From Nocardioides cavernae (GTDB taxonomy: Bacteria > Actinomycetota > Actinomycetes > Propionibacteriales > Nocardioidaceae): a stretch of 64,000 bases of DNA. Positions within the stretch are counted from its first letter, which is position 1; the number at the start of each line of letters is the position of its first letter. The notes under the pieces were generated by a model. It saw nothing but the letters and a program-made list of their open reading frames with translations. It did not search any database and was not told the DNA's origin. Below, piece by piece: positions 52,304 to 60,223 of the stretch. The translations under genes were made by a program, and so were the position numbers. The stretch spans positions 4,774,001 to 4,838,000 of the forward strand of contig NZ_JAFBCA010000001.1 of the NCBI RefSeq assembly GCF_016907475.1, in the 5' to 3' direction.

Positions 52304-53086
52304 GTGCCCGAAGTCGACCTGGTGTTCCCCCGCGCGTTCGTCGAGTTCGCCGATCCCGCTGACGACACCCAGGTGTTCCGCTGCGACCTGACGTGGTTGA
52401 CCTCGGCCTACACGTGCATCTTCGGCCAGGGGTGCCAGGGCATCTACGCCGACGCCCCCGACGTCGGCTGCTGCACCCTCGGCGCCCACTTTGCCGACCG
52501 CGACGACGAGAAGCGGGTCGCGGTGTTCGTCGGCGAGCTCACCCCCGACGACTGGCAGCTCCACCCCGGTCGGTCGGTGCGCAAGGCGGACTGGATCGAG
52601 ACCGACGACGACGGCGAGCGCAAGACGCGGGTCGTCGAGGTCGACGGACAGCAGGCGTGCGTCTTCCACAACCGGACCGACTTCACCAACGACGCCGGGC
52701 ACGTCGGCGCCGGCTGCGCCCTCCACGGCCTCGCCCTGCGCCAGGGGCGCAACCCTCTGGAGACCAAGCCCGACGTGTGCTGGCAGCTGCCCATCCGCCG
52801 CCAGTTCCGCGAGGTCGAGCGGCAGGACGGCACCTCCTACACCGAGGTCTCGATCGGCGAGTACGACCGCCGCGGCTGGGGTCCGGGCGGCCACGACCTC
52901 GACTGGTACTGCTCCGGCAACACCGAGGCGCACGTCGCGCCCGAGCCGGTCTACGTCACCCACGAGCCCGAGCTCGTCGAGCTGATGGGTGCGGAGGCGT
53001 ACGCCGAGCTGGTGCGGCACTGCGAGGCCCACGTGGTTTCGCGATCCGCGCTCGCCCTGCACCCCGCGTCACCGCGTCACTTTTGA
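52304..53086 (+). CDS. DUF3109-like cysteine-rich protein
   Basis: 260 residues. Clustered cysteines ([49 protein letters not shown]) suggest a metal or Fe-S site. No signal peptide. It looks like the conserved actinobacterial protein found next to the Ppx/isomerase pair in mycobacteria (recalled, not checked). GTG start 6 nt after TAGGCT (leaderless). Confidence 0.75.
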
Positions 53087-53105
53087 GCGCAATCGCGCAA
53101 AAGTG
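53078..53105 (+). terminator. hairpin at the end of the DUF3109 gene
   Basis: CACTTTTG (53078-53085) pairs with CAAAAGTG (53098-53105), with a smaller GCG/CGC stem inside the loop. The stop codon lies in the structure. It separates the gene from the ebo-type promoter. Confidence 0.6.
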
Positions 53106-53117
53106 CTGAACCCGGCG

Positions 53118-53146
53118 TTGAAAGTGGTTGTGACGTGCATTACCTT
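53118..53146 (+). promoter_or_regulatory. promoter of the ebo-type cluster
   Basis: TTGAAA (53118-53123), exactly 17 nt, TACCTT (53141-53146). The start would fall on or next to the GTG at 53153, so the first gene is leaderless. It is one of the closest matches to a housekeeping promoter in the window. Confidence 0.75.
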
Positions 53147-53152
53147 CGACAG

Positions 53153-54349
53153 GTGGCACCCTCCCCCAACCCCCGGACCGAGGATCACGGCCCCGGCGGC
53201 ACTCTCGGCATCTGGTTTATCGGCGCTCGCGGCTCGCTCGCGACCACCGCGACCATCGGCCTGAGCGCCCTCGCCGCCCACCTGACCGACGAGACCGGCT
53301 GCGTCTGCGCCCACCCCGACCTCGACGCGCGCGGCCTGCCGGCGTACGCCGACATCGTCGTGGGCGGCCACGACGTCGACACCCTCCCGCTCGTCAAGCA
53401 GGCCGAGCGTCTGGTGGCGGGCGGCGTGGTGCCGGGGATCCTCGCGCACCAGGTCACCGCCGAGCTCGAGGCGACCGAGGCCCGGCTGCGCCCGGGTGTG
53501 CGCCACAGCGACCCCACCGACCAGCGCGCCGACGTGGAGCGGCTGGCGGACGACATCCGCGAGTTCGCCGCCGGCGTCGACCGGGTCGTCGTCGTCGACG
53601 TGTCGAGCACCGAGCCGCCGCACGACGCCGGCACCGACGCCGCCACCTGGGCCGACCTCGAGGCCGCGTGGTCGGCCGGCCGAGCGCCCCTGCCGCCGAG
53701 CTCGGTCTACGCCTGCGCCGCCGTGCTGGCCGGAGCGGCCTACGTCGCCTTCACGCCGAGCCCCGGCATCGACGTCCCCGCCCTGGTCGAGCTCGCCGCC
53801 GAGCGTGGCCTCCCCTACGCCGGCAGCGACGGCAAGACGGGCGAGACCCTGGTGAAGTCGGCGCTCGCGCCGATGTTCTCCACCCGGTCGCTGGCCGTGC
53901 GGTCGTGGACCTCGATCAACCTGCTCGGCGGCGGCGACGGGTCCACCCTGTCCGACCCCGCCGCCCGGGAGAGCAAGACGAGCACCAAGCGCTCCGGCCT
54001 GGAGTCGATGCTCGGCCACCCGGTGCCCGGCCCGATGCACATCGACTACGTCGAGGACCTCGGCGACTGGAAGACCGCCTGGGACCACGTCCGGTTCGAC
54101 GGCTTCCTCGGCACCCGGATGACGATGCAGTTCACCTGGGAGGGCTGCGACTCGGCCCTCGCAGCTCCGCTGGTCCTCGACCTCGCGCGCCTCACCGCGC
54201 GGGCCGTGGCGGTCGGCGAGACCGGCCCCCTGGCGGCCCTCGGCTTCTTCTTCAAGCAGCCGATCGGCTCGCAGGAGCACCGGCTCGCGCAGCAGTGGGA
54301 CGCCCTGCTCGCCTGGTCGACGGACTGCGCCGACCGGGTGACGACGTGA
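53153..54349 (+). CDS. inositol-phosphate-synthase-like protein heading an ebo-type cluster
   Basis: 398 residues. The Rossmann motif is GARGSLATT (24-32), the catalytic segment is SDGKTGETLVK (225-235, with Lys235), and NLLGGGDGS (256-264) and KQPIGSQEH near the end match myo-inositol-1-phosphate synthase. The GTG at 53153 coincides with the predicted transcription start; the upstream GTG at 53135 lies inside the promoter. Probably cyclises a sugar phosphate. It overlaps eboC by 4 nt (GTGA). The exact product is unknown. Confidence 0.8.
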   Translation: MAPSPNPRTEDHGPGGTLGIWFIGARGSLATTATIGLSALAAHLTDETGCVCAHPDLDARGLPAYADIVVGGHDVDTLPLVKQAERLVAGGVVPGILAHQVTAELEATEARLRPGVRHSDPTDQRADVERLADDIREFAAGVDRVVVVDVSSTEPPHDAGTDAATWADLEAAWSAGRAPLPPSSVYACAAVLAGAAYVAFTPSPGIDVPALVELAAERGLPYAGSDGKTGETLVKSALAPMFSTRSLAVRSWTSINLLGGGDGSTLSDPAARESKTSTKRSGLESMLGHPVPGPMHIDYVEDLGDWKTAWDHVRFDGFLGTRMTMQFTWEGCDSALAAPLVLDLARLTARAVAVGETGPLAALGFFFKQPIGSQEHRLAQQWDALLAWSTDCADRVTT

Positions 54350-55209
54350 GGGTCGCCGACCTCGTCGAGCTGACCCGGGCCCCCGCCGCGTTCTCCATCC
54401 CCGGAGACGCATGGTCCGGCGCCGCGCACGCGGCGACCGCCGGGCGGGGCTGGGCGATGCCGATCGCCTCCACCTGCCTCTACTGGTCCGGCATGGCCTT
54501 CAACGACTGGTGCGACCGGCACGTCGACGCCGAGGAGCGGCCCGAGCGGCCGATCCCTTCGGGCCGGGTCAGCCCCGACGCCGCCCTCGCCGTCGCTGCC
54601 GGGCTCGGTGCCGCCGGGCTCGGCGTGGCGGCCCTCGTCGGCGGTCGCTCGGCCGTCGCGGTCGCGGCCCCGCTCGCCCTCATGGTGGTGGCGTACGACG
54701 CCGTCGCGAAGGACGCGGCCGTCGGGCCACTCGCGATGGCCTCGACGCGGGGGCTCGACGTCCTCCTCGGCGCCCACGCCTCGCCGGCCAGCGCGTGGCA
54801 GCCCGCCCTTGCGATGACCGCGCACACCGCGGGCCTCACCTGGCTCAGCCGCGGAGAGGTGCACGGCACTCGCCCCGAGGTCGCCGGAGCGGTGACCGCG
54901 GGCACCCTCGCGGTGGCCGCCGCCACGGCCCACGCGGCGTTCCACGACCCGCACTCCGGTCGCCTCGCCCGCGCGACCGGCGTCGGCCTGTCGGCGGCGT
55001 ACGCCGTCGTGGTCGGCCGCGCCCAGGCCCGCGCGGCCCAGCAGCCCACGGCCGAGGCGGCCCGCGCCGCCACCCGCACCGGGATCGGCGGCTTCTCGCT
55101 CCTGCAGGGAGCCTGGCTCGCCCGCCGCGGCCGGCTGGCCGCCGCCGCGACCGTCGTGGGCGCCGGCCCGGCCTACCGCGCCCTGTCGCGCCGCTGGAGC
55201 CCGACGTGA
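54346..55209 (+). CDS. eboC: EboC-like UbiA-family prenyltransferase
   Basis: 287 residues, Ala-rich, about 7-8 membrane helices. The Asp-rich motif is N-D-W-C-D-R-H-V-D (Asn53, Asp54, Asp57, Asp61), with a second Asp region YDAVAKDAAVGPLAMASTRGLD. Such SCO-type UbiA proteins attach an isoprenoid to a polar head. In this cluster that would make a membrane-linked cyclitol derivative (inference). GTG start in a GTGA overlap; another GTGA joins it to the next gene. Confidence 0.82.
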   Translation: MRVADLVELTRAPAAFSIPGDAWSGAAHAATAGRGWAMPIASTCLYWSGMAFNDWCDRHVDAEERPERPIPSGRVSPDAALAVAAGLGAAGLGVAALVGGRSAVAVAAPLALMVVAYDAVAKDAAVGPLAMASTRGLDVLLGAHASPASAWQPALAMTAHTAGLTWLSRGEVHGTRPEVAGAVTAGTLAVAAATAHAAFHDPHSGRLARATGVGLSAAYAVVVGRAQARAAQQPTAEAARAATRTGIGGFSLLQGAWLARRGRLAAAATVVGAGPAYRALSRRWSPT

Positions 55210-56093
55210 GCGCCGCGGGACAGGGCGCCCTCCGCCTCGGCTACGGCAGCAACGGCTTCTCGGGCCACCGGTTTCCCGACGCCTGCGCGGTGATCGCGGG
55301 GCTCGGCTACGACGGCGTCGCCCTCACCCTCGACCAGCCGCACCTCGACCCCTTCGCCGACGACGCGGGCGCCCAGACCGCGCGCGCCGCGAAGTCGCTC
55401 GCCGACCACGGGCTCGCCGTCGTCATCGAGACGGGCTCGCGCTACGTCCTCGACCCGTGGCACAAGCACGAGCCCACCCTCGTCAGCGACGGCGACCGTG
55501 GACCGCGGGTCGAGCTGCTGATCCGTGCCGTGCGCATCGCCGCCGAGCTGGGCGCCGAGGCGATGTCGTGCTGGTCGGGCGTCCTGCCCGAGGGCGCCAG
55601 TGCCGAGGACGGCTGGCGCCGGCTCACCGACGGCCTCGGCCCCGTGCTCGACCTCGCGCACGAGCTCGACGTCACCGTCTGCTTCGAGCCCGAGCCCGGC
55701 ATGCACGTCGACACGGTCGACGAGGCCCTCGAGCTGCGCCGCCGGCTCGGCGAGCCCGACCACCTCCGGTTGACCCTCGACCTGGGCCACCTCGTGTGCA
55801 ACGAGCCGCGCAGCCCCGAGGCGTCCATCGCCGTCGCCGGTCCGCTCATCGGCAACGTGCAGGTCGACGACATGGTGCGCGACGTCCACGAGCACCTCGA
55901 GCTCGGCACCGGCACCCTCGACCTCGACGCGGTCCTCCGCGCGCTGCTGGCCACCGGATTCACCGGACTCGCCAGCGTCGAGCTGCCCCGCCACTCCCAC
56001 GCCGCGCCCACGGTCGCCGCGCGACAGATCGCCGCCCTGCGCGCCTCCCTGGCCCGCCTCGCCGACTCCGACAGGGAAGGACCCACGCCGTGA
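55206..56093 (+). CDS. sugar-phosphate isomerase/epimerase-like TIM barrel in the ebo-type cluster
   Basis: 295 residues, xylose-isomerase-like fold. It starts LRLGYGSNGFSGHRFPDA. Metal-site candidates are CFEPEPGMHVD, LTLDLGHLVCNE, NVQVDDM and ASVELPRHSH. It is distinct from EboE at 57630 but shares the CFEPEPG/AFEPEPG and DLGHL/DLCHL elements, so the two are related. GTGA overlaps on both sides. Confidence 0.8.
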   Translation: MSAAGQGALRLGYGSNGFSGHRFPDACAVIAGLGYDGVALTLDQPHLDPFADDAGAQTARAAKSLADHGLAVVIETGSRYVLDPWHKHEPTLVSDGDRGPRVELLIRAVRIAAELGAEAMSCWSGVLPEGASAEDGWRRLTDGLGPVLDLAHELDVTVCFEPEPGMHVDTVDEALELRRRLGEPDHLRLTLDLGHLVCNEPRSPEASIAVAGPLIGNVQVDDMVRDVHEHLELGTGTLDLDAVLRALLATGFTGLASVELPRHSHAAPTVAARQIAALRASLARLADSDREGPTP

Positions 56094-56749
56094 CCGAGAT
56101 CCGGCCGCTGGCCGCCGACGACACCATCCGGCAGGCGCTCGACGACCGCGCGCGGGCTCAGCTCGACGCGCTCACCGCCGAGGTGACCGAGGACCCCTCG
56201 CGGCTCGGCCGAGCGTTCCCCGCGGCCGCCCGCAGGACCGGCCGCGGCCCGCTCGCCGGGGCCGACGACGTCCTGCTCGAGGACGCCGTACGCGTCTCCC
56301 TCGTGCAGACCGCGGCGCGCTCCCTCGACCCCGAGGCGCTCCTGGCCGAGCTGCGCGAGGTCTACCGCTACGGCGACAACGACGAGAAGCGCGCGGTCCT
56401 GCACGCCCTGTCCGGCGCACCCGACGGCGTCGACGGCACCGACCTGCTCCTCGACGCCCTGCGCACCAACGACACCCGCCTCGTCGCCGCCGCGATGGGT
56501 CCGCACAGCGACCGGCTGGACGACGACTCCTGGCGCCAGGGCGTCCTCAAGTGCCTGTTCACCGGCGTGCCCGTCGCGTCGGTCGCCGGGCTCGCCCGTC
56601 GCGCCGACAGCGAGCTGGCCGAGATGGTGCAGCGCTACCAGCGCGAGCGCGAGGCCGCCGGGCGCGACGTACCCCTCGACGTGCAGGTCGTCCTCGACGC
56701 CTGCGCCGCCTCCCCCGAGCACGACCGGCACCAGCAGAAGGACTCCTGA
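56090..56749 (+). CDS. eboA: EboA-domain protein
   Basis: 219 residues, soluble, all-helical. The GDNDEKRAVLHAL segment and the NDTRLVAAAMGPHS and WRQGVLKCLFTG blocks are the EboA pattern. No catalytic residues are known. In cyanobacteria the ebo genes are needed for delivery of a precursor to the periplasm. GTG start overlapping the previous stop (GTGA) and sharing one base with eboB (TGATG). Confidence 0.82.
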   Translation: MTEIRPLAADDTIRQALDDRARAQLDALTAEVTEDPSRLGRAFPAAARRTGRGPLAGADDVLLEDAVRVSLVQTAARSLDPEALLAELREVYRYGDNDEKRAVLHALSGAPDGVDGTDLLLDALRTNDTRLVAAAMGPHSDRLDDDSWRQGVLKCLFTGVPVASVAGLARRADSELAEMVQRYQREREAAGRDVPLDVQVVLDACAASPEHDRHQQKDS

Positions 56750-57627
56750 TGCGCATCTTCGACCCGCACATCCACATGACCTCGCGCACCACCGACGACT
56801 ACGAGGCGATGTACGCCTCCGGCGTCCGCGCGCTCGTCGAGCCGGCGTTCTGGCTGGGCCAGCCGCGCACCACCGTCGGGTCGTTCACCGACTACTTCGA
56901 CGCCCTCGTGGGCTGGGAGCGGTTCCGCGCCTCGCAGTTCGGCATCGCCCACCACTGCACGATCGCGCTCAACCCCAAGGAGGCCAACGACCCGCGGTGC
57001 GCCGAGGTGCTCGACGTGCTCCCGCGCTACCTCGCCAAGGACGGCGTGGTCGCCGTGGGTGAGGTCGGCTTCGACTCGATGACCGTCGAGGAGGAGAAGG
57101 CGTTCGTGCGGCAGCTGGAGCTCGCCGTCGAGTTCGAGCTGCCGGCGATGGTCCACACGCCCCACCGCGACAAGGAGCAGGGCACCCGCCGCACCCTCGA
57201 GCTCGTCACCGAGTCGGGCCTCGCGCCCGGGATGGTCGTCGTCGACCACCTCAACGAGGTCACCGTCGACCAGGTCGACGACGCCGGCTGCTGGATGGGC
57301 TTCTCGATCTACCCCGACACCAAGATGGACGAGCACCGGATGGTCGCGATCCTGCAGCGCCGCGGCCTGGACCGGGTGCTGGTCAACTCGGCCGCCGACT
57401 GGGGCCGCAGCGACCCGCTCAAGACCTCGAAGACCGGTGCGGCGATGCTCGAGGCCGGCTTCTCCGCCGACGACGTCGACCGCGTGCTGTGGCGCAACCC
57501 GATCGAGTTCTTCGGCCAGAGCGGCCGGCTGCTCGTCGACCCGGACCTCGCCGACGACGCCTCCGCCGGCTCCGACTCCGCGGCGACCTTCGAGGGCAAC
57601 TCGATCCTGCGCGGCTCGCGGGACTGA
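56749..57627 (+). CDS. eboB: EboB-like TatD-family metal hydrolase
   Basis: 292 residues, amidohydrolase/TatD TIM barrel. The metal motif DPHIH (Asp5, His7, His9) opens the protein; later ligands are GEVGFDSM, MVHTPHRDK, VVDHLNEVT and NSAADWGRSD. TatD proteins are nucleases or esterases; the EboB substrate is unknown. ATG start in a one-base TGATG overlap. Confidence 0.85.
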   Translation: MRIFDPHIHMTSRTTDDYEAMYASGVRALVEPAFWLGQPRTTVGSFTDYFDALVGWERFRASQFGIAHHCTIALNPKEANDPRCAEVLDVLPRYLAKDGVVAVGEVGFDSMTVEEEKAFVRQLELAVEFELPAMVHTPHRDKEQGTRRTLELVTESGLAPGMVVVDHLNEVTVDQVDDAGCWMGFSIYPDTKMDEHRMVAILQRRGLDRVLVNSAADWGRSDPLKTSKTGAAMLEAGFSADDVDRVLWRNPIEFFGQSGRLLVDPDLADDASAGSDSAATFEGNSILRGSRD

Positions 57628-57629
57628 CG

Positions 57630-58799
57630 ATGAGGCTGCAGCACCCCGACGGCACGGTCGTCCACCTCGGCTACGGCACCAACGTCCTGCCGGCCGAGGA
57701 CGTCGACGGGCTGATCGCCCAGGTGGGCACGTACGGCGACCGGCTGCGCCAGCACCTCGACACCGACCGCGTCGGCCTCGGGATGTGGCTCCCGGCCGCC
57801 GCGGCGCGCCGCCTCGCCTCCGACCTCGACGCCGTGGCGCGGCTGCGGGACGCGATCGACGAGCACGGCGTCGAGATCGTCACCCTCAACGCCTTCCCCT
57901 ACGCCGCCTTCCAGGACGAGGTCGTCAAGAAGCGCGTCTACCACCCGACCTGGGCGGAGCGCTCCCGTCTCGACTACACCCTCGACGTGGCCCGCGTGCT
58001 GGCCGCGCTGATGCCGGAGGACGCCGTCCGGGGCAGCATCTCGACGCTGCCGCTCGCCTGGCGCGCGCCGTGGCTGGCCGACCGGCAGTCGCACGCCGAG
58101 CTGCACCTCAAGGCCCTGGCGGAGGGGCTGGCCGAGGTCGAGGCCGAGACCGGGCGCACCGTGCGGGTCGCCTTCGAGCCCGAGCCCGGCTGCGTCATCG
58201 AGACCATCGCCGAGGCGGTCGAGCGGCTGGACGCGGCCGACCGCGAGCGGATCGGCGTGTGCCTGGACCTGTGCCACCTCGCCGTCGGCTTCGAGGACGC
58301 GACCGACGCGCTCGCCCGGCTCGACGCCGCCGGCCTCGACGTGGTCAAGGTGCAGCCGGCCGCGGCGCTCGTCGTCGACGACCCGGCCGACCCGGACGCC
58401 CGCGCCGCGCTGACGTCGTACTCCGAGGACCGCTTCCTGCACCAGGTGCGCCAGCGCGTCGGCCAGCGGCTCGCGTCGCGCGACGACCTCCCCGACGCCC
58501 TCGCCGGACGTCGGCCGCTCGACGACCGGTCACCGTGGCGGGTGCACTTCCACGTGCCGGTCCATGCCGACCCCGCCCCGCCCCTGCGCAACAGCCGCGA
58601 CGACCTGCGCGCCTCGCTGGCCGCCCTCCTCGGCGGCGACACCGCCCGCACCGACCACCTCGAGGTCGAGACCTACACCTGGTCCGTCCTCCCCGACGGC
58701 GCCCCCGCCGACGACGACGCCCTCGCCGCCGGGCTCGCCGCCGAGCTGGCGTGGGTCCGCGACGAGCTCGTCGGGCTCGGCCTCACCCCGCTCGACTGA
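57630..58799 (+). CDS. eboE: EboE-like TIM-barrel protein
   Basis: 389 residues. It begins LGYGTNVLPAEDVDGL and has LNAFPYAAFQ, FEPEPGCVIE, GVCLDLCHLAVGFED and WRVHFHVPVH blocks, typical of EboE (xylose-isomerase-like, longer than usual isomerases). Probable divalent metal site from the Glu/Asp/His set. ATG start two nt after the eboB stop. Confidence 0.85.
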   Translation: MRLQHPDGTVVHLGYGTNVLPAEDVDGLIAQVGTYGDRLRQHLDTDRVGLGMWLPAAAARRLASDLDAVARLRDAIDEHGVEIVTLNAFPYAAFQDEVVKKRVYHPTWAERSRLDYTLDVARVLAALMPEDAVRGSISTLPLAWRAPWLADRQSHAELHLKALAEGLAEVEAETGRTVRVAFEPEPGCVIETIAEAVERLDAADRERIGVCLDLCHLAVGFEDATDALARLDAAGLDVVKVQPAAALVVDDPADPDARAALTSYSEDRFLHQVRQRVGQRLASRDDLPDALAGRRPLDDRSPWRVHFHVPVHADPAPPLRNSRDDLRASLAALLGGDTARTDHLEVETYTWSVLPDGAPADDDALAAGLAAELAWVRDELVGLGLTPLD

Positions 58800-58806
58800 C
58801 CGACCT

Positions 58807-58838
58807 CCCCCACCCAACCCCCACCCAGCCCCCACCCA
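58807..58838 (+). repeat. three C-rich units between eboE and eboF
   Basis: Three repeats of C4-5-ACCCA spaced about 11 nt fill most of the 53-nt gap. This is the only real gap in the cluster; a complement with G runs could form non-B DNA, but simple slippage is enough to explain it. Confidence 0.5.
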
Positions 58839-58852
58839 GACAGGACGCCACC

Positions 58853-60223
58853 GTGGCCCACCCCAAGCTGCTCGTCGTCGACCTCGTCGGCCTGACCCCC
58901 GACCTGCTCCGGCACATGCCCCGGCTGCGCGGCCTCGCCGATGCGGGCTCGCAGGCCACCCTGGAGCCGATCCTCCCGGCCGTCACCTGCTCCGTGCAGT
59001 CGACGTTCCTCACCGGCCTGCCGCCGTCGGGGCACGGCGCCGTGGGCAACGGGTGGTACTTCCGCGAGCTGGGCGAGGTCTTCCTCTGGCGCCAGCACAA
59101 CAAGCTCGTCGACGGCGAGAAGGTGTGGGAGACGATCCGCCGCGAGCGGCCCGACTACACCGTCGCCAACGTCTGCTGGTGGTACGCCATGGGCATGACG
59201 ACCGACTACACGGTCACACCGCGGCCGATCTACTACGCCGACGGCAAGAAGGCGCCCGACTGCTACACCCGCCCGCCCGAGCTCCACGACGAGCTCGTCG
59301 GCGCGCTCGGCGAGTTCCCGCTGTTCACGTACTGGGGCCCGACCGCCGCGATCGCCTCCAGCGAGTGGATCATCGCCGCCACCCGCCGGCTGATGCCGCG
59401 CAACGACCTCACCCTCTGCTACGTCCCGCACCTCGACTACGACCTCCAGCGCTTCGGCCCCGACTCCGACGAGGCCGTGCGGGCCGCCCAGGAGATCGAC
59501 GCCGCACTGGCCCCGCTGCTCGACGACGCCGAGCGGACCGGCGTCACCACGCTGGTGCTCTCGGAGTACGGCATCACCGACGCCGACCAGCCCGTCGACA
59601 TCAACCGGATGCTGCGCCGCAGCGGGCTGCTCGAGGTCTACACCCAGGACGGCATGGAGTACCTCGACCCGTGGACCTCGCGGGCCTTCGCCGTCGCCGA
59701 CCACCAGGTCGCGCACGTCTACGTCGACGACCCCGCCGACCTCGAGACGGTCCGCGGGCTGTGCGCCGAGCTCCCCGGCGTCGACCAGGTGCTCGACCGC
59801 AGCGCGCAGGCGGCGTACGGCCTCGACCACGAGCGCTCCGGCGACCTGGTGCTCGTCGCCGACGAGACCGCGTGGTTCACCTACTACTACTGGCTCGACG
59901 ACGCCCGGGCGCCCGACTTCGCGCGGGGCGTCGAGATCCACCGCAAGCCGGGCTACGACCCCGCCGAGCTGTTCTTCGACCCCGAGGACAAGGCGGTCAA
60001 GCTCAAGGCCGGCCTCACCCTCGCCAGGAAGAAGGCCGGGCTGCGGTACGCGATGAAGGTCGTGCCGCTCGACCCCTCGCCGGTGCGCGGCACCCACGGA
60101 CGCCTGCCGAAGGACCCCACGCTCGGCCCCATGCTCGTGTGCAGCACCCCGGGCGCGGTCGCCGGGTCGGTGGCCGCGACCGACGTGCGCGACCTGATGC
60201 TGAGGCTCGCCGGCACGTCTTGA
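58853..60223 (+). CDS. eboF: EboF-like alkaline phosphatase/nucleotide pyrophosphatase-family protein
   Basis: 456 residues of the type I phosphodiesterase/nucleotide pyrophosphatase group. Asp10 (LVVDLVGL) and nucleophile Thr45 (PAVTCSVQSTFLTG) match the metal-binding and catalytic positions. PHLDYDLQRFG, SEYGITD and ADHQVAHVY supply further ligands. No signal peptide, so it is cytosolic. GTG start with ACAGGACG upstream. It would remove or transfer a phosphate in the pathway. Confidence 0.83.
   Translation: MAHPKLLVVDLVGLTPDLLRHMPRLRGLADAGSQATLEPILPAVTCSVQSTFLTGLPPSGHGAVGNGWYFRELGEVFLWRQHNKLVDGEKVWETIRRERPDYTVANVCWWYAMGMTTDYTVTPRPIYYADGKKAPDCYTRPPELHDELVGALGEFPLFTYWGPTAAIASSEWIIAATRRLMPRNDLTLCYVPHLDYDLQRFGPDSDEAVRAAQEIDAALAPLLDDAERTGVTTLVLSEYGITDADQPVDINRMLRRSGLLEVYTQDGMEYLDPWTSRAFAVADHQVAHVYVDDPADLETVRGLCAELPGVDQVLDRSAQAAYGLDHERSGDLVLVADETAWFTYYYWLDDARAPDFARGVEIHRKPGYDPAELFFDPEDKAVKLKAGLTLARKKAGLRYAMKVVPLDPSPVRGTHGRLPKDPTLGPMLVCSTPGAVAGSVAATDVRDLMLRLAGTS

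Follow-up and report, generated by a model that had tools for sequence, protein, structure and literature searches.

Results

An INO1-like cyclase stands in the place of EboD

The window, a 64,000-nucleotide (nt) stretch of the Nocardioides cavernae genome (a single contig of 4.85 Mb), carries an ebo-type operon of seven plus-strand genes that spans positions 53153–60223. In order, these genes encode an INO1-like cyclase, a UbiA-like prenyltransferase, a triosephosphate isomerase (TIM) barrel protein, an EboA-domain protein, a TatD-like hydrolase, EboE, and a protein resembling nucleotide pyrophosphatases/phosphodiesterases (NPP) (Table 1). Clusters of ebo genes occur in many phyla and in algal plastids. 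An earlier note on this DNA had described seven co-directional genes with tight junctions, and the coordinates and overlaps are exactly as it claimed: five of the six junctions overlap or lie 2 nt apart, with overlaps of 4, 4, 4, and 1 nt followed by gaps of 2 and 53 nt. Its central claim, that this is an ebo-type cluster which lacks EboD and has an Ino1 homologue, also held; the profiles for the EboA domain, EboE, and INO1 were passed, whereas that for EboD was not. No EboD gene was found within 20 kb around the cluster, and none exceeded the profile cut-off genome-wide. The single match elsewhere in the genome (176 bits, cut-off 333) is probably an ordinary dehydroquinate synthase. With the same profile (NF004852), none of 32 ebo-positive phylum genomes had a match above the cut-off, compared with 4 of 4 genomes that carry EboD-type clusters.

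Table 1 Genes of the operon and elements upstream of it
Feature	Position	Strand	Evidence
Gene 1, INO1-like, 398 aa, archaeal-type myo-inositol-1-phosphate synthase, in EboD's place	53153..54349	+	PF07994/PF01658
Gene 2, UbiA-superfamily prenyltransferase, SCO3242 family, EboC position	54346..55209	+	NF045897; UbiA 64 bits
Gene 3, xylose-isomerase-like TIM barrel, EboE's superfamily	55206..56093	+	PF01261 (AP_endonuc_2) 133 bits
Gene 4, EboA-domain protein, all-helical solenoid model	56090..56749	+	NF035938 149.6 bits, cut-off 50
Gene 5, TatD-like metal hydrolase, EboB position	56749..57627	+	PF01026 54 bits; 3guw 93 bits
Gene 6, EboE	57630..58799	+	NF035939 402 bits, cut-off 250; PF01261 (AP_endonuc_2) 55 bits
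Gene 7, EboF-type, NPP fold, altered metal site	58853..60223	+	PF01663 (Phosphodiest) 213.7 bits
Inverted repeat ACTTTTG-N12-CAAAAGT, candidate operator	53079..53104		arms kept in 3 genus genomes
Promoter-like block TTGAAA-N17-TACCTT	53118..53146	+	6 nt before GTG 53153; kept in 3 genomes

Gene 1 passes both INO1 profiles (PF07994, 145 bits against a cut-off of 25; PF01658, 112 against 27) and, among known structures, scores 205 bits with the archaeal synthase 1u1i, 51 with 6k96, and 30 with 1gr0. Residues N256, D262, K275, K279, K307, and K368, which by alignment count correspond to N255, D261, K274, K278, K306, and K367 of 1u1i, are presumably catalytic; all six are kept in 67 of 67 aligned INO1 rows from ebo clusters and are also present in 29 rows of the mycothiol type. 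This count covers 67 of 70 ebo INO1 rows; those of loci L022, L019, and L026 were left out for odd frame-extension lengths, and a PF01658 genome search finds open INO1 frames in all three. Canonical inositol-phosphate synthase activity is the default expectation for gene 1, because the protein is closest to 1u1i and the residues are kept in every row counted.

Among sampled loci, the INO1 type and the EboD type segregate between actinobacteria and other bacteria

Of 394 genomes of the class, 90 had an EboE above the profile cut-off, as did 24 of the 98 from the genus and 6 of 149 sampled phylum-wide. From the phylum we assembled 83 loci, related genomes included: 80 hand-picked stretches (five below the cut-off), two Streptomyces plasmid records, and the window. 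The outside set holds 84 loci, comprising 80 named ones, the best 80 of 580 matches to an EboE alignment headed by an Azospirillum sequence, and four plasmid records; the six plasmid records were read from 48 matches. A locus was called multi-gene if it had at least three of C, A, B, E, and F.

The exact order INO1-C-TIM-A-B-E-F on one strand recurs in 64 of the 83 phylum loci, and the arrangement is therefore not a chance one; ten loci have an EboE-like gene without a cluster. INO1 is present in 70 of the 73 multi-gene phylum loci, gene 3 in 68, and EboD in none. Among the 67 multi-gene outside loci, whose named members come from the best 80 of 580, INO1 and gene 3 are each found in none and EboD in 64. 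The neighbourhood survey that the earlier note had suggested, Ino1-like versus EboD, separates the two sets of loci, and an INO1 variant peculiar to this genome is not what we find. The idea that INO1 takes EboD's place stands as far as the presence of one and the absence of the other are concerned; what replaces EboD is, however, INO1 together with gene 3. INO1 and gene 2 overlap by a median of 4 nt. Since the named outside set leans to relatives of the Azospirillum query, INO1-type clusters may also exist outside the phylum. Other cluster members are missing from loci L027 and L057.

Trees of the shared proteins divide along the same line. The EboE tree comprised 84 rows, with 35 of 69 INO1-type and 36 of 67 EboD-type sequences (drawn at random, with the window fixed) and 13 of 25 others. 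A single branch, with a support of 100 in the Shimodaira–Hasegawa-like approximate likelihood ratio test (SH-aLRT), parts all INO1-type rows from all EboD-type rows; the INO1 side also holds L008, L018, L022, and L041, in which INO1 is undetected or not full-length. The split recurs in the trees of the UbiA protein (SH-aLRT 97), EboB (100), and EboF (86, under the tool's star), support in every case being SH-aLRT alone from short searches. This pattern fits one old exchange of the cyclase, in either direction. The closest named relatives of EboE and INO1 are mostly from Nocardioides.

Orphan EboE-like genes with no other ebo genes occur at L032, L050, L061, and L063 in the window's class and at L119 in Paraburkholderia, and all five fall on the EboD side of the EboE tree. 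The gene at L050 adjoins genes for a sugar-type ATP-binding cassette (ABC) transporter, an M24 peptidase-like protein, a zinc dehydrogenase, and a transketolase-like protein. Such an orphan is perhaps a catabolic relative that hints at the substrate of EboE.

Genes 2 and 3 depart from the known ebo complement

The earlier note had taken gene 2 for EboC, an identification that did not survive comparison with profiles. The protein scores 138.6 bits against the EboC equivalog NF035940, under the cut-off of 250, and 315 bits against SCO3242_trans (NF045897), over the cut-off of 260. The EboC of an Azospirillum EboD-type cluster also falls under the EboC equivalog cut-off (89 of 250). Residues N53, D54, D57, and D61 of gene 2 are kept in 124 of 124 aligned rows.

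Gene 3 has a conserved pattern of residues (E161, E163, D192, H195, Q219, H228, H230, and E259; 62 rows) that resembles that of EboE. In hhalign comparisons, the gene 3 profile matches EboE at 97.8% and two other neighbouring TIM-barrel families at 97.4% and 96.1%, whereas the EboE profile matches gene 3 and not the two neighbours (16.0% and 0.7%). We rejected a specific paralogy of gene 3 with EboE, because its profile also matches those two families; judged by these profiles, gene 3 is the nearest of the three TIM barrels to EboE and nothing beyond that. At 5 of 68 loci a single open frame spans gene 3 and EboA, and a gene 3/EboA-type fusion in actinobacteria is already mentioned in a part of PMC5133447.

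Genes 4 to 7 are shared with EboD-type clusters

The profiles confirm genes 4 and 6 as an EboA-domain protein and EboE. Gene 4 did not reach the cut-off of the narrower EboA_family profile NF035937 (52.6 bits, cut-off 320). It is modelled as an all-helical solenoid with a predicted local distance difference test score of 96.5; the model does not contradict the idea, put forward in a part of PMC6282210, that EboA is an adaptor. In EboE, E183, E185, D213, H216, H306, H308, and E347 are kept in at least 97% of 161 rows of both types.

Homology of gene 5 to EboB was likewise upheld, by the TatD profile and by tblastn matches of 194–348 bits to the EboB genes of four EboD-type loci; the profile libraries used hold no EboB-specific profile. 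Residues H7, H9, E105, H136, H167, and D217 are kept in at least 97% of 135 rows, which include both the INO1 type and the EboD type.

EboF folds like NPP enzymes, and T45 and D195 are kept in 131 of 131 rows. When EboF was aligned to phosphonoacetate hydrolase, the canonical two-metal ligand set of NPP enzymes was not found: Q199, E238 (130 of 131 rows), and Y239 occupy the H, D, and H positions of the hydrolase, and just 64 of 131 rows have D at the position of D10. The hydrolase positions are ones that we take to be metal ligands. The earlier note had described EboF as phosphatase-like; the NPP fold and the nucleophile Thr are kept, but the usual ligand set is missing, which makes the label "phosphatase" unsafe. 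EboF is probably not an ordinary two-zinc phosphatase.

Other inositol synthases in the host and its relatives

Three PF01658 genes are present in the host genome: a mycothiol INO1, gene 1, and a third gene at C1:2.24 Mb. With the mycothiol INO1 profile TIGR03450 (cut-off 638 bits), the separate host copy scores 719.5 bits and gene 1 only 30. The earlier note had made its pathway depend on gene 1 not being the organism's only inositol synthase; the separate mycothiol INO1 rules out that gene 1 is the sole one. In a PF01658 search of 36 genomes, two or three matches turned up in 30 of 32 ebo-positive genomes, and one each in four same-genus genomes without EboE. Second INO1 copies, obtained from 27 of the 32 ebo-positive genomes, were nearer to the mycothiol INO1 than to gene 1 in all 27 cases; one of these, a 162-residue fragment, was dropped from the INO1 tree. 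That tree contained 37 of 40 chosen ebo rows (three were dropped for length), 29 mycothiol-type rows, and 4 others. The mycothiol-type rows fall together in a single clade (SH-aLRT 100); its branch is very long, and long-branch effects are to be borne in mind.

The third host INO1 (L090:711-9675; G000:C1 ~2.232-2.241 Mb) nests among the ebo-cluster INO1 sequences of same-genus genomes. Ahead of it lie genes for a ThuA-GSDH-PKD-CBM6 protein of 2163 aa and for a TIM barrel, and no further ebo gene was found in the 19 kb stretch L090 except for a weak TIM-barrel match. At L074, an open reading frame (ORF) of the GSDH cluster and such a TIM barrel precede the ebo cluster, for which reason the third INO1 locus looks like the remnant of a second ebo locus.

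Upstream region and neighbouring genes

The likeliest start codon of gene 1 is GTG at 53153, and a leaderless start is likely from its distance to the promoter-like block, whose TTGAAA hexamer marks position 53118. Two further genomes of the genus have almost the same block, with one base of the second hexamer differing in L049. The earlier note had placed all seven genes behind one promoter. A single promoter is plausible because the block recurs nearly unchanged in those two Nocardioides genomes; a sigma-70 scan with stricter criteria called no promoter upstream of gene 1. The arms of the inverted repeat are identical in L045 and L049, and the spacer sequence varies, in L049 also by 1 nt.

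Neighbouring genes were grouped into ORF clusters, each named after one Pfam-scanned member. The counts are rough because the ORF picker misses real genes, including four of the seven in the window. Beside the 73 multi-gene phylum loci we counted GSDH/PKD/CBM6 proteins (35), further TIM barrels (23 and 15), ABC transporters (22), Gfo/Idh/MocA oxidoreductases (12), and ROK regulators (11). A single-query tblastn search found the GSDH protein nearby in 27 of 61 INO1-type and 1 of 54 EboD-type loci. A regular Gfo/Idh/MocA reductase that might finish a keto-cyclitol in EboD-type clusters was considered and rejected, as one occurs in 1 of 54 long EboD-type loci; at E 1e-12, the two such genes of Ketogulonicigenium match no locus other than their own.

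Upstream of gene C, locus L018 carries an inositol monophosphatase family gene, a flavin adenine dinucleotide (FAD) oxidoreductase gene, and a gamma-glutamyltranspeptidase gene, and L008 has members of the same inositol monophosphatase family and FAD oxidoreductase ORF clusters. An INO1-type cluster on a Streptomyces camelliae plasmid (L089) has a ScyD/ScyE family gene to one side of it and genes for an aromatic prenyltransferase, a methyltransferase, and a multicopper oxidase to the other, which recalls the scytonemin setting of cyanobacterial ebo genes.

Discussion

We observed the gene content and gene order, a pattern of replacement, an evolutionary split, and conserved active-site residues. 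The simplest explanation is that INO1 plus gene 3 and EboD both feed the cyclitol head group of an isoprenoid-cyclitol, a product class first proposed for ebo in a part of PMC5133447. On the sequence comparisons, we regard it as an even call that INO1 in the actinobacterial ebo lineage is the source of the cyclitol head group for which EboD is responsible elsewhere.

We infer the product of the cluster, the order of its steps, and its function as follows. Judging by its family and active site, gene 1 would convert glucose 6-phosphate to inositol 1-phosphate, which gene 3 might isomerise or otherwise remodel; together the two enzymes would do the job that EboD has elsewhere and provide a head group of the polyhydroxylated cyclohexane type. 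At the membrane, the UbiA enzyme may couple this group to an isoprenoid, either as it is or once trimmed, and EboB, EboE, and EboF, with EboA as adaptor, would tailor the conjugate. The resulting lipid-linked cyclitol could be a carrier or an envelope metabolite. Such a role would match that of the Nostoc ebo genes, which a part of PMC6282210 reports to be responsible for export of scytonemin intermediates.

Several points weigh against this proposal. According to PMC5133447, the substrate of EboD is presumably a C7 sugar, and the head group that it makes may therefore differ. Ubi-297, an ebo prenyltransferase and EboC homologue, farnesylates quinoline acids rather than a cyclitol in vitro, according to a part of PMC9235831. 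NCBIfam favours hydroxypyruvate isomerase (45.7 bits of 353) over EboE (10.5 bits) for gene 3, and because two other TIM barrels match as well, the part given to gene 3 is tentative. INO1 is present without gene 3 in L007, L024, and L082, and is itself absent from L008 and L018, each of whose genomes has a second, INO1-type cluster (L019 and L026). The L041 cluster lacks both genes locally; a pair formed by an INO1-like gene (203 bits) and a gene 3 relative (192 bits), about 4 kb apart at another place in that genome, speaks for the proposal, but this unlinked INO1 groups with the unlinked L202 copy, outside most ebo INO1 rows and apart from those of its own class. In G254 and G426 the ebo INO1 is the only PF01658 match and may thus also serve general inositol needs.

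A serious alternative, if a somewhat improbable one, is that the same chassis makes different products, a prenylated inositol derivative in the INO1 type and a C7-cyclitol derivative in the EboD type, with enzymes that accept either ring. The deep split of the shared proteins in trees and the assignment of gene 2 to the SCO3242 family, an NCBI equivalog apart from EboC, favour different products, as does the confinement of the extra TIM barrel to the INO1 type. In contrast, the conservation of EboF and EboB favours a shared substrate moiety: the window EboF is 43–56% identical to 15 aligned EboD-type rows, with the key residues invariant, and the ligand residues of EboB are kept across both types.

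INO1 might instead be an accessory that tops up inositol for other uses while the ebo proteins handle something else, such as the export of a neighbouring metabolite. The reported scytonemin role in Nostoc (PMC6282210, in part) would suit this, as would the loss of INO1 from L008, L018, and locally L041 and its standing as the sole PF01658 gene in G254 and G426. We consider such a role quite unlikely, because 70 of 73 loci carry INO1, it overlaps gene 2 by a median of 4 nt, and 30 of the 32 ebo-positive genomes have a further Ino1 gene. Less probable still is a shift of function in gene 1, as in 6k96, towards a cyclopentitol or some other cyclitol phosphate. The family does include such an enzyme (51 bits), and gene 1 lies far from the mycothiol INO1 (30 of 638 bits); it is, however, much nearer to 1u1i (205 bits) and keeps six of six residues, although these may not discriminate it from 6k96.

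The proposal that INO1 feeds the ebo pathway has a bolder form, in which INO1 and EboD, as unrelated cyclases, each arrived independently at feeding one and the same inositol-type C6 head group into a single conserved pathway. We hold this form to be improbable on balance. Were it true, both cyclases would feed one pathway and the EboD product should therefore be inositol-like; EboD would not be a sedoheptulose 7-phosphate cyclase, and all bacterial and algal-plastid ebo clusters would have a prenylated inositol lipid as their product, which might act as a general carrier of metabolites out of the cytoplasm.

Consulted parts of PMC5133447, PMC6282210, PMC9235831, and PMC6092422 name no physiological ebo substrate or product, the in vitro substrates of Ubi-297 being the only ones reported, and the word inositol is absent from the main texts of these four papers. 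Among the open-licence papers that the searches listed, none dealt with an INO1-type ebo cluster in its title or at the start of its abstract, and the lineage is not described there as far as the portions consulted extend. The gene set itself is visible in databases, because NCBI annotation of Streptomyces plasmids names the cluster parts side by side. A large lineage whose cyclase belongs to an enzyme class of well-known chemistry offers inositol phosphate as a candidate for the ebo head group. An inositol head group would be traceable by label and INO1 exchangeable with EboD, which turns the product of EboD into an experimental question.

Comparison with known systems places the parts of the cluster as follows. 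Gene 1 aligns near full length with the archaeal synthase 1u1i and shares its six active-site residues; unlike 1u1i, it sits in an ebo operon, and its activity is a prediction. The five-membered-cyclitol-phosphate synthase 6k96 belongs to the same family but is the more distant of the two by score. The actinobacterial mycothiol INO1 (TIGR03450) is of the same superfamily and resides in the same genome, yet forms a separate clade. Gene 2 belongs to the SCO3242 family (NF045897), whose name carries no function and for which a search brought up none. With the ebo ABCDEF operon, as described in parts of PMC5133447 and PMC6282210, the cluster shares the EboA domain, EboE, the TatD-like EboB, a UbiA-like C, and the NPP-like EboF; it differs in having INO1 and a second TIM barrel, no EboD, a C protein of the SCO3242 family, and the order INO1-C-TIM-A-B-E-F. 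The EboG variant of the ebo operon (PMC5133447, in part) likewise has one component exchanged, but there EboA is swapped and EboD kept, whereas the actinobacterial cluster keeps EboA and swaps EboD.

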